The notes under the pieces are model-generated. The model saw only the letters and a program-made list of their open reading frames with translations, ran no database searches and had not been told where the DNA came from. From Natrinema ejinorense (GTDB taxonomy: Archaea; Halobacteriota; Halobacteria; Halobacteriales; Natrialbaceae): a stretch of 64,000 nt of DNA. This document shows, piece by piece, positions 30,278 through 35,698 of this stretch. Numbering within the stretch: position 1 is the first letter of the stretch; every line of letters starts with the position of its first letter. Location: contig NZ_NXNI01000001.1 in NCBI RefSeq assembly GCF_002494345.1, forward strand, positions 3,906,001-3,970,000, written 5' to 3'. Both the position numbers and the translations under genes were made by a program.

Positions 30278-30310
30278 ACGTACTTTTCACCGCCGTCCTA
30301 AGCGCGGGTG

Positions 30311-31153
30311 ATGGAACTGCTGGAGCGCCGACGGGCGCTGATCGAGGAGCGTCTCGTCGAGGTAGTCGAGGGGGTCGAACCCGAGACGCTCAGCGACGAA
30401 GTGCGCCACGTTGCGCTCTCGGGCGGGAAGCGCGTCCGACCGATGGTGACGCTATTGGCCTGTGAGACCGTCGGCGGACGGGCCGAGGACGCAGTCGAGT
30501 TCGGCGTCGGGATCGAACTCGTTCACGCGGCCTCGCTGGTCGTCGACGACATCATCGACCGCTCGGAGCTGCGACGCGGGACGACCAGCGCCTGGGCCGA
30601 GTTCGGTCATGGCCCGGCGATCATCACCAGCGATGGGCTGCTCGGAGAGGCGTTCGCCCTGTTTTCGGCCGACCCGAACGCGACCCGCGTCGTCGCCGAA
30701 GCGATGGTCGAACTCGGCATCGGCGAGGCGACCGAACTGTCCGCCGAGCCGACCAACGAGGAAGAGTACATGACCCTGGCACGCCGCAAGACCGGGGCGC
30801 TGTTCCGGGCGGCGGCGGAACTCGGGGCGATCGCTGCCGACTCCGATCCCGTCACCGTCGAGGCACTGGGCGAGTACGCCGAACGAGTCGGTATCGCCTT
30901 CCAGATCAGAGACGACGTGCTCGATGCCGTCGCCGATCCCGAGGAACTGGGCAAACCGACCGGCAACGACGCAGCACTCGAGCGCCCGTCGGTCGTCCAG
31001 GTGACGGATCTCACGCCCGAGGAAGCCAACGCTCACGCCCGGCGGGAGGCCGATCGAGCGATCGACGCCCTGGATCGAGTCGAAGTCGCCGATCCCGAGG
31101 CCCGACAGTATTTGCTCGATCTCGCGGAATTCGTCGTCGAGCGCGAGCGATAA
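30311..31153 (+). CDS. idsA: short-chain polyprenyl diphosphate synthase (GGPP/FPP type)
   Basis: A 280-residue trans-prenyltransferase making GGPP (or FPP) for archaeal ether lipids and carotenoids. First aspartate-rich motif VVDDIID (D79, D80, D83) and second FQIRDDVLD near residues 198-206 are intact. The short first motif spacing (DDxxD without insert) is archaeal type. The ATG at 30311 is preferred over the GTG at 30308 because the TACTTTT box is 27 bases upstream. Chain length is not decided by what I see. The gene stands alone and reads toward the DUF373 gene. Confidence 0.9.
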   Translation: MELLERRRALIEERLVEVVEGVEPETLSDEVRHVALSGGKRVRPMVTLLACETVGGRAEDAVEFGVGIELVHAASLVVDDIIDRSELRRGTTSAWAEFGHGPAIITSDGLLGEAFALFSADPNATRVVAEAMVELGIGEATELSAEPTNEEEYMTLARRKTGALFRAAAELGAIAADSDPVTVEALGEYAERVGIAFQIRDDVLDAVADPEELGKPTGNDAALERPSVVQVTDLTPEEANAHARREADRAIDALDRVEVADPEARQYLLDLAEFVVERER

Positions 31154-31214: not shown

Positions 31215-32327
31215 TCAGACGCGTTCGGCCCGCGTCCCCTCTTCGCGGTCCGGATCGTCGAACCACGATTCTGCGACGGCGAAGGTAAGCGTGCTCATAA
31301 TTCCGAGCAGCGTCCCTGCCGTCAGTGCCGTCGCGAGATAGGTGATGCCCACCTCCTCGAGGAAGAACGCACTCACCGCATAGAGGACGATCGCGATCGA
31401 GACTACGTAGAAGGGGGCGTTGAGGTATCGCCACTCAAGCGAGCCGGCGATGTATTCGTCGGTGATCTGTCCGAGGCTGGTCGTCAGCCCCGCCGCGGCC
31501 AGCCAGAGGATCGAGCCGTTGACCAGTGCGGCGAGCATGACGGGAACCTCGAGGTCGCCGGCGGTCGATCGTTGGACTCCCTCGAGCGTGTCGACCCCGC
31601 TGACGCCGCCGAGGACGAACAGCGCCGCGGCGACGACGTACGCCAGCAGCGTCGTTCGGCCGGCGTACAGCGAGCGGCGGGCGCGTTCGACGGCGGTGTC
31701 CAGCCGGTCGCCGAGGCCGAGCCCGCGCGAGATGAGATAGAACCCAAGCAGCGCGGACGTCATTCCCAGTACGAACCCCGGCATGTCCAGGACGGTCCCG
31801 ATCAGCGCGAGCGGATAGATCAATAGGAGAATACCGAGGGGGATGAGGACCGTCCCGCGCGTCTCGGGGTCGTCTAACACCTGCTTGATCGTGTAGTACA
31901 TCGACTCGAGATCCTGTGCCTGCCGGACGACGACCCGCCGAACGCCGTCGATGGGGACACGCGAACGGATGATCGGGATGACGGACTCGTCCTGTGCGCC
32001 GTCCGTGACGACGAGGGTCGTGACGTCTTCCGCGGTCGAGAGACTCGCGAGGACGGTGTCGACTTCGTCGCCGACTTCCCGGTTGGCGCTGACGTCGCCC
32101 TGATCGTTACCGGTGACGACGGCGACTTCGACGTTCTCGTCGCGGTCGGCGAGGTCGTCGTAGACGTGCAATCCCTGAAAGATGACGTTGACGTCGGAGT
32201 CCTCCGGATCCGCGGTGGCGAGTGCGACCGCTGCCTCCTCGACTGGAGCGCGGCCGATAACCGGCGTCGAGAAACCGGTCTTCCGGCCGAGATCGTCGTC
32301 GAGATCGACACAGAGGACCAACAGCAT
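31215..32327 (-). CDS. DUF373-family membrane protein
   Basis: A 370-residue archaeal protein. Residues 1-140 form a soluble Rossmann-like domain starting MLLVLCVDLDDDLGRKTG and containing TPVIGRAPVEEAAVALATAD and VVTDGAQDESVIPII, then about six to seven membrane helices (residues about 160-345). The combination is the conserved archaeal DUF373 architecture; its function is unknown. It starts divergently from nothing nearby: the sensor kinase gene ends 70 bases upstream on the same strand, so the two could be co-transcribed. Confidence 0.85.
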   Translation of the reverse strand: MLLVLCVDLDDDLGRKTGFSTPVIGRAPVEEAAVALATADPEDSDVNVIFQGLHVYDDLADRDENVEVAVVTGNDQGDVSANREVGDEVDTVLASLSTAEDVTTLVVTDGAQDESVIPIIRSRVPIDGVRRVVVRQAQDLESMYYTIKQVLDDPETRGTVLIPLGILLLIYPLALIGTVLDMPGFVLGMTSALLGFYLISRGLGLGDRLDTAVERARRSLYAGRTTLLAYVVAAALFVLGGVSGVDTLEGVQRSTAGDLEVPVMLAALVNGSILWLAAAGLTTSLGQITDEYIAGSLEWRYLNAPFYVVSIAIVLYAVSAFFLEEVGITYLATALTAGTLLGIMSTLTFAVAESWFDDPDREEGTRAERV

Positions 32328-32397: not shown

Positions 32398-34311
32398 TCA
32401 GCCGGAGCCGTCCCTCCCGGCGTCGGATTCGTCGGGTATCGATCCGACGTCGGCGTCGGACGTCGTCACGTTCGTGATCTCGAACCGAGCACCGCCGGCC
32501 GATCCGTTCCGAGCCGTGACCGACCAGCCGTGAGCCTCGGCGATTTCCGTGACGATCGCCAGCCCGAAGCCGGTCCCGTCCGGCTTCGTCGTATAGCCGA
32601 ACTCGAACACCGAGTCCGTATCGGCCGGCAGTCCCACGCCCGTGTCCTCGACGTAGAACCCACGTCGGCTCGTCTCGTCGCCGGTCGAGTCCCCATCAGC
32701 CGCGAGCGACCCGACGGTGACGACCAGCGGCTCCGTCTCGCCGGTGCCGGCCTCGTCGGTTCCATGCTTGACCGAATTTCGGAACAGGTTCTCGAACAGC
32801 GTCCGAAGTCGAGCGTCGTCGCCGTACACTCGCATCTCGCCGTCGATCTCGAGACGGGCACCACCGGTATCGACGGTCGACCACGCGTCGCGAGCCACGC
32901 CGGCAAGCGGGAGCCATTCCCGCTCGCCGATCGTTTTGCCCTGCCGGGCCAACTGCAACAGCCCGTCGACGAGTTCCCCCATCCGCGACAGCGACCACTG
33001 CAGTTCGTCGACGTGTCGACTGTCCAGTTGCTCGTCGAGGGGGTCGAGATGCCCCTGTGCGACGTTCAGCGGGTTTCGGAGGTCGTGGCTGACGAGGCTG
33101 GCGAACTGTTCGAGCCGGTCGTTCTGGCGCTCGAGTTCGCGTCGGTAGCGTTCCTGTTGGGTGATATCGCGGAACGCGTGGACGGTTCCGGCGAACTCGC
33201 CGTCCTCGAGCGGGAGCAATTTCGTATGGACATCGTAGATCCGTTCGTCGCCGTCGGGTCGGCGAAAGCGGACGTTGTACGTGGCTTTCTCGTCGTCGGT
33301 GTCCGCGGAGAGGAGCTGACGGACGGCCTCGATGTACTGATCGATCGTCGACTCGCGATAGTATCCGCGTTCGATGAGCGTCGGAAACGCCATCCCCAGG
33401 AGTTCGTCTTTGGTCTCCTCGAATTTGGACAGATACTCGTCGTTCAACCAGACGATAGTCGCGTCCGCATCGAGTACGAACAGCCCGAACGGTGCGGTCT
33501 CGAGGATCGTCTCGTCCCGGTAGCGTTCGCGGCGTCGTTCCTCGTGGCGTGTGAGTTTCCGAACGATGCCGATGGAGCCGGCGGGCTCGTCGTCGATATC
33601 CAGCGGTGCGACGCTCATCTCGCCGTCCCGTCGTCCATCCCCGGTTTCGAACGTCCACTCGAAGCGCGATCTCTCCGGGGGCGCTGCTGTGGTCTCTGGG
33701 TCCGACACATCGCTTGCACCTGCGGCCGTTTCGTCGGTGAGAAACGTCCCGATGGTCGACCCGAGCAGTCGATCTCGGTCGTACCCCAGCCAGTCGACCG
33801 CCGCGTCGTTTACCATCGTAATCGTCCCGTTCCGATCGAAGAGACAGATCGGGTCGGCAGCGTTCTCGACGACCGACCGGTACCGCTCGAGTTGCCGATC
33901 GATCTCCGCTCGACGGTCTTCCACACGGCGTTTCTCGACGGCGTTCTCGATTCGATGTGCGAGGACCGTATACTGGGCGGTGGCAGTCTCCTTTCGCAGG
34001 TAGTCGGTCACGCCGGCATCGATCGCCTTGCGTGCGATCTCCGCCGGATCAGCGCCCGTAACTAGGAGAAACGGGACGTCCGGATCGCGGTCACGGACGG
34101 CCTGGAAGAACTCGAGTCCGTTCATTCCGGGCATCTCGTAGTCGCTGATGAGACAGTCGACATCGACGTCGTCGAGGATCGCAAGCCCCGCACGCCCGCT
34201 GTCAGCGGTCGTTACGTCGAACTCGTCGTTCGTTCGCTCGAGGGCGGTCGCGAGGAAGTCGCGAACGCTCGGATCGTCGTCGACACACAGGACGTGGATC
34301 CTCGCTGACAT
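32398..34311 (-). CDS. hybrid response regulator/PAS/histidine kinase
   Basis: A 637-residue soluble signalling protein. Order: receiver domain (residues 1-120, phospho-acceptor D57 in LISDYEMPG, with Lys in YLRKE), two PAS domains (about 140-255 and 275-390), histidine kinase core with H409 in SLVSHDLRNPLN, N box FENLFRNSVKHG, G1 VEDTGVGLP and G2 TKPDGTGFGLAI. No membrane segment, so it senses an intracellular cue through PAS. Receiver at the N-terminus in front of PAS and kinase is a common haloarchaeal layout. Divergent from the radical SAM gene with 122 bases between starts. Confidence 0.92.
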   Translation of the reverse strand: MSARIHVLCVDDDPSVRDFLATALERTNDEFDVTTADSGRAGLAILDDVDVDCLISDYEMPGMNGLEFFQAVRDRDPDVPFLLVTGADPAEIARKAIDAGVTDYLRKETATAQYTVLAHRIENAVEKRRVEDRRAEIDRQLERYRSVVENAADPICLFDRNGTITMVNDAAVDWLGYDRDRLLGSTIGTFLTDETAAGASDVSDPETTAAPPERSRFEWTFETGDGRRDGEMSVAPLDIDDEPAGSIGIVRKLTRHEERRRERYRDETILETAPFGLFVLDADATIVWLNDEYLSKFEETKDELLGMAFPTLIERGYYRESTIDQYIEAVRQLLSADTDDEKATYNVRFRRPDGDERIYDVHTKLLPLEDGEFAGTVHAFRDITQQERYRRELERQNDRLEQFASLVSHDLRNPLNVAQGHLDPLDEQLDSRHVDELQWSLSRMGELVDGLLQLARQGKTIGEREWLPLAGVARDAWSTVDTGGARLEIDGEMRVYGDDARLRTLFENLFRNSVKHGTDEAGTGETEPLVVTVGSLAADGDSTGDETSRRGFYVEDTGVGLPADTDSVFEFGYTTKPDGTGFGLAIVTEIAEAHGWSVTARNGSAGGARFEITNVTTSDADVGSIPDESDAGRDGSG

Positions 34312-34433
34312 CGGCTGTTCTCCCTTCCATCCCCATCGTATAATAACATGTGGCTAGAAACGAGGCGTCGACACGCTCCAGTCCACTGCAGTTTCGCACG
34401 GCTTTTGAGGCTCGGGTGGCTACGTTCCGTCGA

Positions 34434-35429
34434 ATGATCTCGAAGGGCTGTGAGCAGTGTGCGAAAGGTGGCAAGATGGTGCTGTTCGTCTATGGCTACT
34501 GCGACCAGCGCGACTGCTTTTACTGCCCGCTCGGGGAGAACCGCAAGAACGTCACCGACGTCTACGCTAACGAGCGACTCGTCGAAGCGGACGAGGACGT
34601 GCTCACCGAGGCCCACCGAATGGACGCGCTGGGCACGTCGATCACCGGCGGCGAGCCCCAGGAGGCGCTCGGCCGGACCTGTCACTACCTCGAGTTGCTC
34701 AAAGACGAGTTCGGCGAGGATCACCACACCCACCTCTATACCGGTATCACCGGCGGCCGCGAGAACATGCGGCGACTCTCCGAGGCCGGCTTGGACGAGA
34801 TTCGGTTCCATCCGCCGTACGAACAGTGGGGGGACCTCCACGGGACCGAGTGGGAGGAGATCCTCTACATCGCCCGCGAAGAAGGGCTCACCCCCGCGTT
34901 CGAGATTCCAGGCATCCGCCCCGAGACGGAGTTCCTCGAACTCATCGACGAGGGCGCAGCCGAGTTCTGTAACGTCAACGAGTTCGAGATGAGCGACGGG
35001 AACTACCGACGGATGCAAGAACAAGGGTTCGAACTCAAGGAAGACCACATGAGCGCCGTCGACGGCTCCCGCGAAGAGATCCTCGAGGTGATGGGCGACC
35101 ACGAGAAGGTCTACTTCTGTACGTCCGTATTCAAGGACGCTGCCCAGCATCGTCGCCGCCTCAAACGCATGGCCCGCAACATCCGCCGCGAGTTCGACGA
35201 CGTCACCGACGACGGCACGCTCGTCTACGGCAAGACCCACGCCGACCCCGCGGAGTTCGAAGCCCTGGGCGTCCCCGAGGAGTTCTACACCGTCAAACCC
35301 GACCACGTCGAGGTCGCCTGGTGGCTCTTAGAGGAGATGATCGAGGACGGCGACCTCGACGACGGCGAAATCGTCGAGCAGTATCCGACCTACGACGGAC
35401 AGGTCGTCGAGCGGACGCCGTTAGCGTGA
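34434..35429 (+). CDS. radical SAM protein with CX4CX2C cluster motif
   Basis: A 331-residue radical SAM enzyme. The ATG at 34434 (MISKGCEQCAKGG) is used; the frame upstream is non-coding. The cluster motif is YGYCDQRDCFYCPLGENR: C23-x4-C28-x2-C31, one residue longer in the first gap than canonical CX3CX2C. GTSITGGEPQEAL matches the SAM-binding GGE motif. A further C6/C9 pair sits at the N-terminus. Archaeal members of this group are conserved but of unknown reaction. The C-terminal coding end (QVVERTPLA) is repeated twice downstream in non-coding DNA. Confidence 0.88.
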   Translation: MISKGCEQCAKGGKMVLFVYGYCDQRDCFYCPLGENRKNVTDVYANERLVEADEDVLTEAHRMDALGTSITGGEPQEALGRTCHYLELLKDEFGEDHHTHLYTGITGGRENMRRLSEAGLDEIRFHPPYEQWGDLHGTEWEEILYIAREEGLTPAFEIPGIRPETEFLELIDEGAAEFCNVNEFEMSDGNYRRMQEQGFELKEDHMSAVDGSREEILEVMGDHEKVYFCTSVFKDAAQHRRRLKRMARNIRREFDDVTDDGTLVYGKTHADPAEFEALGVPEEFYTVKPDHVEVAWWLLEEMIEDGDLDDGEIVEQYPTYDGQVVERTPLA

Positions 35430-35698
35430 GTACCGCGAGCGAGCGAAGCGAGTGAGCGGTTTTTTGGTGGAGATTTTTCGAGGAGGGTGAACGCAGTGAA
35501 CCCGACGAGAAAAAGGTCCACGTGGCAGGTCGTCGAGCGGACGCCGCTGGCATAAAGACCGCGAGCGAACGCGGTGAGCGAGCGGCTTTTTGATGGTGAT
35601 TTTTGGAGGTGGGTGAGCGAAGCGAACCCGACGAGAAAAAAGGTCCACGTGGCAGGTCGTCGAGCGGACGCCGCTAGCGGAGGACCGCGAGCGAACTG
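35400..35698. repeat. tandem array: two 126-127 base units plus partial third, carrying the radical SAM gene's 3' end
   Basis: Unit 1 35400-35525, unit 2 35526-35652, partial unit 3 35653-35698. Each unit begins with the coding end of the radical SAM gene (CAGGTCGTCGAGCGGACGCC, encoding QVVERTPLA), then a palindromic GCGAGCGA...GTGAGCGG segment, a T5-6 run, a second T5 run, an AACCCGACGAG segment, AAAAA and GGTCCACGTGG. Only the first copy is in the gene. Units differ at several positions, so the array is not recent. The T-runs make it a likely multi-hit terminator. Confidence 0.8.

Follow-up and report, generated by a model that had tools for sequence, protein, structure and literature searches.

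The gene at positions 34434–35429 of the window, by which we mean the whole 64,000-nucleotide stretch of Natrinema ejinorense DNA analysed here, encodes a protein that reads as a radical SAM enzyme and carries a cysteine motif one residue longer than the canonical form. This raises the question of whether the lengthened motif marks a separate group of enzymes, as suggested by the original prediction, or a change within a larger family, and which substrate the members of this family may act upon.

A widespread, nearly always single-copy radical SAM family

The frame translates without an inner stop as MISKGCEQC...YGYCDQRDCFYCPLG, and the translation places C6/C9 and C23-X4-C28-X2-C31 exactly as predicted (Table 1). 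The ORF list offers an alternative start, GTG at 34350; the start at M1 is plausible, since MISKGC is conserved and the residue preceding M1 differs between species. A genome search found a single copy of the gene in the source genome.

Table 1. Features at and upstream of the radical SAM gene, in window positions.
Feature	Position	Strand	Basis or remark
Polyprenyl synthetase (PF00348)	30308..31153	+	Upstream, same strand as radical SAM gene
DUF373 protein, between polyprenyl synthetase and radical SAM gene	31215..32327	-	E 3.1e-116
Radical SAM protein gene	34434..35429	+	331 aa plus stop; orthologs found
C6-EQ-C9 codons, N-terminal CxxC	34449..34460	+	Invariant in 31-member alignment
C23-DQRD-C28-FY-C31 codons, predicted [4Fe-4S]/SAM site, CX4CX2C	34500..34526	+	Translation, ortholog motifs, alignment
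Q25 codon, one-residue insertion	34506..34508	+	MAFFT places Q25 opposite a gap in non-halophile members
T71-G72-G73-E74 codons, GGE-type motif	34644..34655	+	T71, G72, G73 invariant; E74 in at least 90%
C229 codon, sixth invariant cysteine	35118..35120	+	31-member alignment

The assignment to the radical SAM superfamily held up: the profile domain PF04055 is recognisable in the window protein (E 3.2e-06; 27.9 bits, slightly below the curated Pfam cut-off of 29.5) and in 31 of 31 diverse family members, with E values up to 0.01 and a best of 1.7e-16. The family is probably COG2108, described as archaeal and 'related to pyruvate formate-lyase activating enzyme'; this description fits an archaeal family with a PFL-activase-like radical SAM domain. 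Among the members read here CX4CX2C is confined to the halophile branch. Our literature search found no paper recognisably about this archaeal radical SAM family; the term COG2108 occurs in one paper on gut flora.

Of the 392 phylum genomes, 317 have a member of the family, as do 292 of the 320 good ones, nearly always as one match; the remaining 75, including 28 good ones, gave no match. Among the gene-less genomes listed (20 of the 75), one belongs to the same order (G134), and the others to families f14, f15, f16, f20, f22 and f23. The G134 genome (family f5) is 98% complete and retains UppS and TIGR01210. In a contig scan, the best 80 of 297 relatives were all from halophiles, with 85–97% identity to the window protein, the closest in named genomes lying on Natrinema contigs; the non-halophile orthologs in our alignment A1 are 34–49% identical to it. 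A plasmid search found no copy of the gene, and none of the 17 stretches of viral contigs that fit a pattern encodes a relative.

Six invariant cysteines

Because 55 halophile orthologs average 91% column identity, with C6, C9, C23, C28 and C31 invariant, the cysteine pattern is not a product of chance. Alignment A1, which comprises 31 diverse members, extends the invariant set to C6, C9, C23, C28, C31 and C229, and includes T71-G72-G73, H126, N180, N182, E185, K234-D235, Q238, R242, R245, G261-T262 and others among the further invariant positions. The GGE-type motif T71-G72-G73-E74 presumably serves SAM binding.

The N-terminal CxxC noted in the original prediction is thus real and family-wide. 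That C6/C9 may form a second zinc or auxiliary cluster site is a reasonable idea on this alignment; such a site, if present, would be a trait of the whole family, as both residues are invariant in the 31 members, and C229 may belong to it as the third cysteine.

The AlphaFold model of the whole protein was poor (pLDDT 61, pTM 0.54), with all six cysteines in stretches below 50. Residues about 1–250 of this model aligned with the radical SAM structures of viperin (Z 11.7; 200 residues, rmsd 3.6), NifB (Z 11.0), BioB (Z 11.0) and PFL-activating enzyme (Z 10.8; 199 residues, rmsd 4.0), and nearly as well with the unrelated tryptophan synthase alpha barrels (Z up to 10.4). Modelled alone, the C-terminal part reached pLDDT 73, and its best PDB match had an E value of only 0.51.

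A probable single insertion in the halophile lineage

The motif of the window protein, CDQRDCFYC (CX4CX2C), departs from the canonical CX3CX2C spacing, and the same lengthened form was read in 112 of 112 loci of the same order (L001–L112, in which some species are present twice, from two collections), whereas all 27 loci from other families (L113–L139) carry CX3CX2C, as in CGKNCFYC. These counts cover 139 of 140 loci, L140 being excluded as a 3' fragment. Even the divergent halophile locus L112, 56% identical, keeps the longer spacing (CPNRGCFYC). The reading of the motif as lengthened by one residue is borne out.

In an IQ-TREE analysis of 47 rows, from which the extra residue had been removed, a branch with 100/100 support separated the 20 halophile rows from the rest; L135 and L137, absent from alignment A1, are present in this tree. 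On it, the length of the motif has to change once, at the halophile base. Given the clean split of the motif forms and this one change, the simplest history is a single insertion in the halophile lineage, within one orthologous family. Family membership, the distribution of the motif and the six invariant cysteines are shown at the level of sequence; for the single origin of the insertion, the support comes from the tree.

The proposal that CX4CX2C defines a separate enzyme group was accordingly rejected, as the other members of the same family read here have CX3CX2C and the insertion lies inside it. A variant motif throughout the family, of the HmdB or PhnJ type, is contradicted by the canonical form of all 27 non-halophile members read. 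Of the enzymes with which the protein had been compared, Dph2 differs from it far more in architecture. HmdB has CX5CX2C throughout its family (PMC3087415), a pattern at odds with a variant restricted to the halophile branch, and ThiC likewise has a far more different architecture (PMC4389238).

Prenyl-chain synthases recur beside the gene

Outside the halophiles, the gene for UppS (cis-prenyltransferase) follows the radical SAM gene co-directionally at +1 or +2 in 24 of 37 regions, from 10 of 18 families, and a 25th UppS, masked by a false ORF in an f12 region, brings the count to 25 of 37. The neighbour regions were called by a greedy longest-ORF procedure, which missed this UppS and, in L169, placed a false ORF where DUF2551 was expected. 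The identity of UppS was verified for one member (PF01255 and TIGR00055), and with several UppS neighbours the frames overlap by one base. DUF2551 lies at +1 in 17 loci.

In both f36 regions, the gene directly upstream encodes a second type of prenyl synthase, PF00348. In 56 of 81 halophile loci, the window included, a PF00348 enzyme is encoded 1.2–5.1 kb upstream on the same strand (blastp E < 1e-30 to the two f36 proteins). Of the 25 others, 2 have short flanks and 23, with a full flank, lack the PF00348 gene. When the f36 enzyme was searched, in one direction, against three halophile genomes, its top match in all three was the PF00348 copy neighbouring the radical SAM gene (173–179 bits; next copy, no more than 89.2). 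By reading only, a long ORF at 32398–34311, also between the polyprenyl synthetase and the radical SAM gene of the window, resembles a sensor kinase. Two of the three f17 regions have a UbiD relative ahead of the radical SAM gene.

We also observed that many genomes encode, besides a full UppS, a protein that matches only the C-terminal half of PF01255 (L151 8730–9380; positions 92–219) and that in some f28 and f21 regions converges on UppS. This protein could be the non-catalytic partner of a two-part cis-prenyltransferase.

The tie to UppS is not tight, since 14 of the 15 genomes searched that lack the radical SAM gene still have UppS, which in 7 of the 15 sits next to DUF2551, and since one 86% complete genome (G007) has the radical SAM gene and no UppS match. 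In three gene-bearing halophile genomes that were searched, UppS lies far from the radical SAM gene.

Possible substrates: RNA, a translation component or an isoprenoid

The neighbourhood also contains genes of translation and RNA metabolism, which are consistent with an alternative that keeps the family and cluster chemistry and has RNA or part of the translation machinery as substrate; the basic, invariant K234, R242 and R245, which follow C229, and the C-terminal domain would then bind a tRNA or rRNA. Seven of the 37 non-halophile regions, belonging to four families, have LysRS at -1. Both f13 regions have aRF1 downstream, and each of the four f28 regions has Dph5 at +3; SepRS is beside the gene on the opposite strand in an f10 region, and RtcB in f16. 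A widespread, nearly always single-copy and slowly changing gene would suit such a role, as would its retention in halophiles, most of which are aerobic. Against this, each translation gene occurs in few lineages, whereas 12 of 18 non-halophile families have a prenyl synthase, UppS or PF00348, next to the radical SAM gene; the C-terminal model matched nothing in the PDB better than E 0.51, and the radical SAM gene is missing from the genomes counted above. We consider an RNA-linked substrate unlikely on balance, if a serious contender.

An isoprenoid-linked substrate is our best guess, weakly held and not much ahead of an RNA substrate; it is based on gene order, that is, on the recurrence of UppS and PF00348 enzymes beside the radical SAM gene.

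Consequences of the longer loop for the reaction

It could also be argued that the insertion altered the reaction, so that the halophile enzymes would differ in catalysis from their CX3CX2C orthologs. The stem branch below the halophiles is long (0.77 changes per column), and several residues around the motif are halophile-only in the alignment, both of which would fit such a change. However, halophile proteins shift strongly in composition anyway, and the remaining invariant positions, including the six cysteines and the C-terminal motifs, are common to both groups. Moreover, the longer spacing has been described in other radical SAM enzymes: GenD1 and GenK, putative cobalamin radical SAM methylases, are described with the same CX4CX2C (PMC4340712), and a review of M. 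marburgensis genes treats a motif of the form 'CX3CX2C or CX4CX2C' as characteristic of radical SAM proteins (PMC3087415). A changed reaction in halophiles thus appears improbable. Unlike GenK and GenD1, the window protein has no cobalamin-binding domain found by Pfam, and the likeness is one of spacing, with no sequence kinship shown. Another parallel is QueE, which also has a lengthened first spacer and keeps a canonical cluster (PMC4389238); it differs in having CX14CX2C and in making 7-carboxy-7-deazaguanine.

Comparison with known radical SAM enzymes

In NCBIfam, the window protein reached no curated cut-off (NF045502, 17.5 of 125 bits; TIGR02109, 13 of 381.35 bits), falling below those of the equivalogs MoaA, BioB, PFLA, PqqE, HxsC and others, and PDB sequence searches gave best E values of only 0.21 and 0.0099. 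Family members showed weak profile similarity to HxsC (28 of 31, best 4.4e-12), PFLA (21 of 31) and archaeal MoaA (20 of 31), from which the window protein is set apart by its scores under the cut-offs, its extra C-terminal part, the CxxC and C229.

An identity with RaSEA was rejected: TIGR01210, which we take to be the RaSEA (archaeosine) model, matches another gene of the source genome (G000:C1:1037673-1038641), and the window protein had no TIGR01210 match in a search with E up to 1. That the gene encodes a sequence-divergent version of one of the known radical SAM enzymes for cofactors or RNA, such as RaSEA, MoaA or PFL activase, is very improbable, the weak profile matches being outweighed by the scores under every cut-off and by the separate TIGR01210 gene.

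A tandem repeat at the 3' end of the gene

At 35400–35696 of the window, the 3' end of the gene (its last 30 bases, with the codons for QVVERTPLA) and about 100 further bases are tandemly repeated, with a period of 126 and 2.3 copies. The repeat unit contains a terminator-like element with a palindrome rich in GC and runs of T. The gene's own 20-base word near its end occurs in 2 to 6 copies in 22 of 81 halophile loci, with six copies in L053 spaced exactly 124 bases apart. The element core and the 3'-end duplication tend to go together: in a stricter test of the 81 loci, 18 had both, 3 the duplication without the core, 6 the core without the duplication, and 54 neither. The core is dispersed: of seven genomes, the source genome has 7 copies (within one mismatch), G018 has 7, and the remaining five have none.

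A separate observation concerns L188 789–1414 (G393:C1:2229600-2231900), where the 3' end of an unrelated gene, which ends ...RAIDRKAPITVVPS, forms an array together with an element of similar type, in 3.1 copies of a 205-base unit with a 100% match; the ORF just downstream, on the other strand, may encode a TnpB-like protein. Two other places with the element, L187 and L190, have no tandem array. The element may duplicate the 3' ends of genes more widely, L187 and L190 being places where it stands without an array.

Discussion

Taken together, these results suggest that the gene encodes the version found in halophiles of an ancient archaeal radical SAM enzyme, one that almost every genome possessing it has in single copy. 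This is an explanation which, taken whole with its cluster chemistry and its isoprenoid substrate, we hold with evenly divided confidence. Normal radical SAM chemistry would be expected from the family: C23, C28 and C31, on a loop one residue longer, would bind an ordinary [4Fe-4S] cluster, and SAM would bind the open iron of the cluster and, on cleavage, yield a 5'-deoxyadenosyl radical. The lengthening of the loop would have been neutral or structural, would date from the ancestor of the halophiles and would have left the chemistry as it was. A second metal site would be built from C6/C9, with C229 as a possible participant; alternatively, C229 may work in the active site. Most speculatively, the radical might act on a product of the prenyl-chain pathway, for instance a polyprenyl or other isoprenoid. 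The full combination, a reaction in the metabolism of isoprenoids or polyprenyl carriers, widespread in the phylum and catalysed by a radical SAM enzyme with a C6/C9/C229 second metal site and a loop lengthened once in the halophile ancestor, is a tentative proposal and rather doubtful in its entirety.

For radical SAM enzymes, the halophile insertion would provide a natural test of how far the cluster loop can vary while the reaction stays the same. For the family itself, a gene kept as a single copy in most of the phylum should serve something central, yet it is without an assigned reaction, and its gene order offers a first testable lead, which points to prenyl-chain metabolism.
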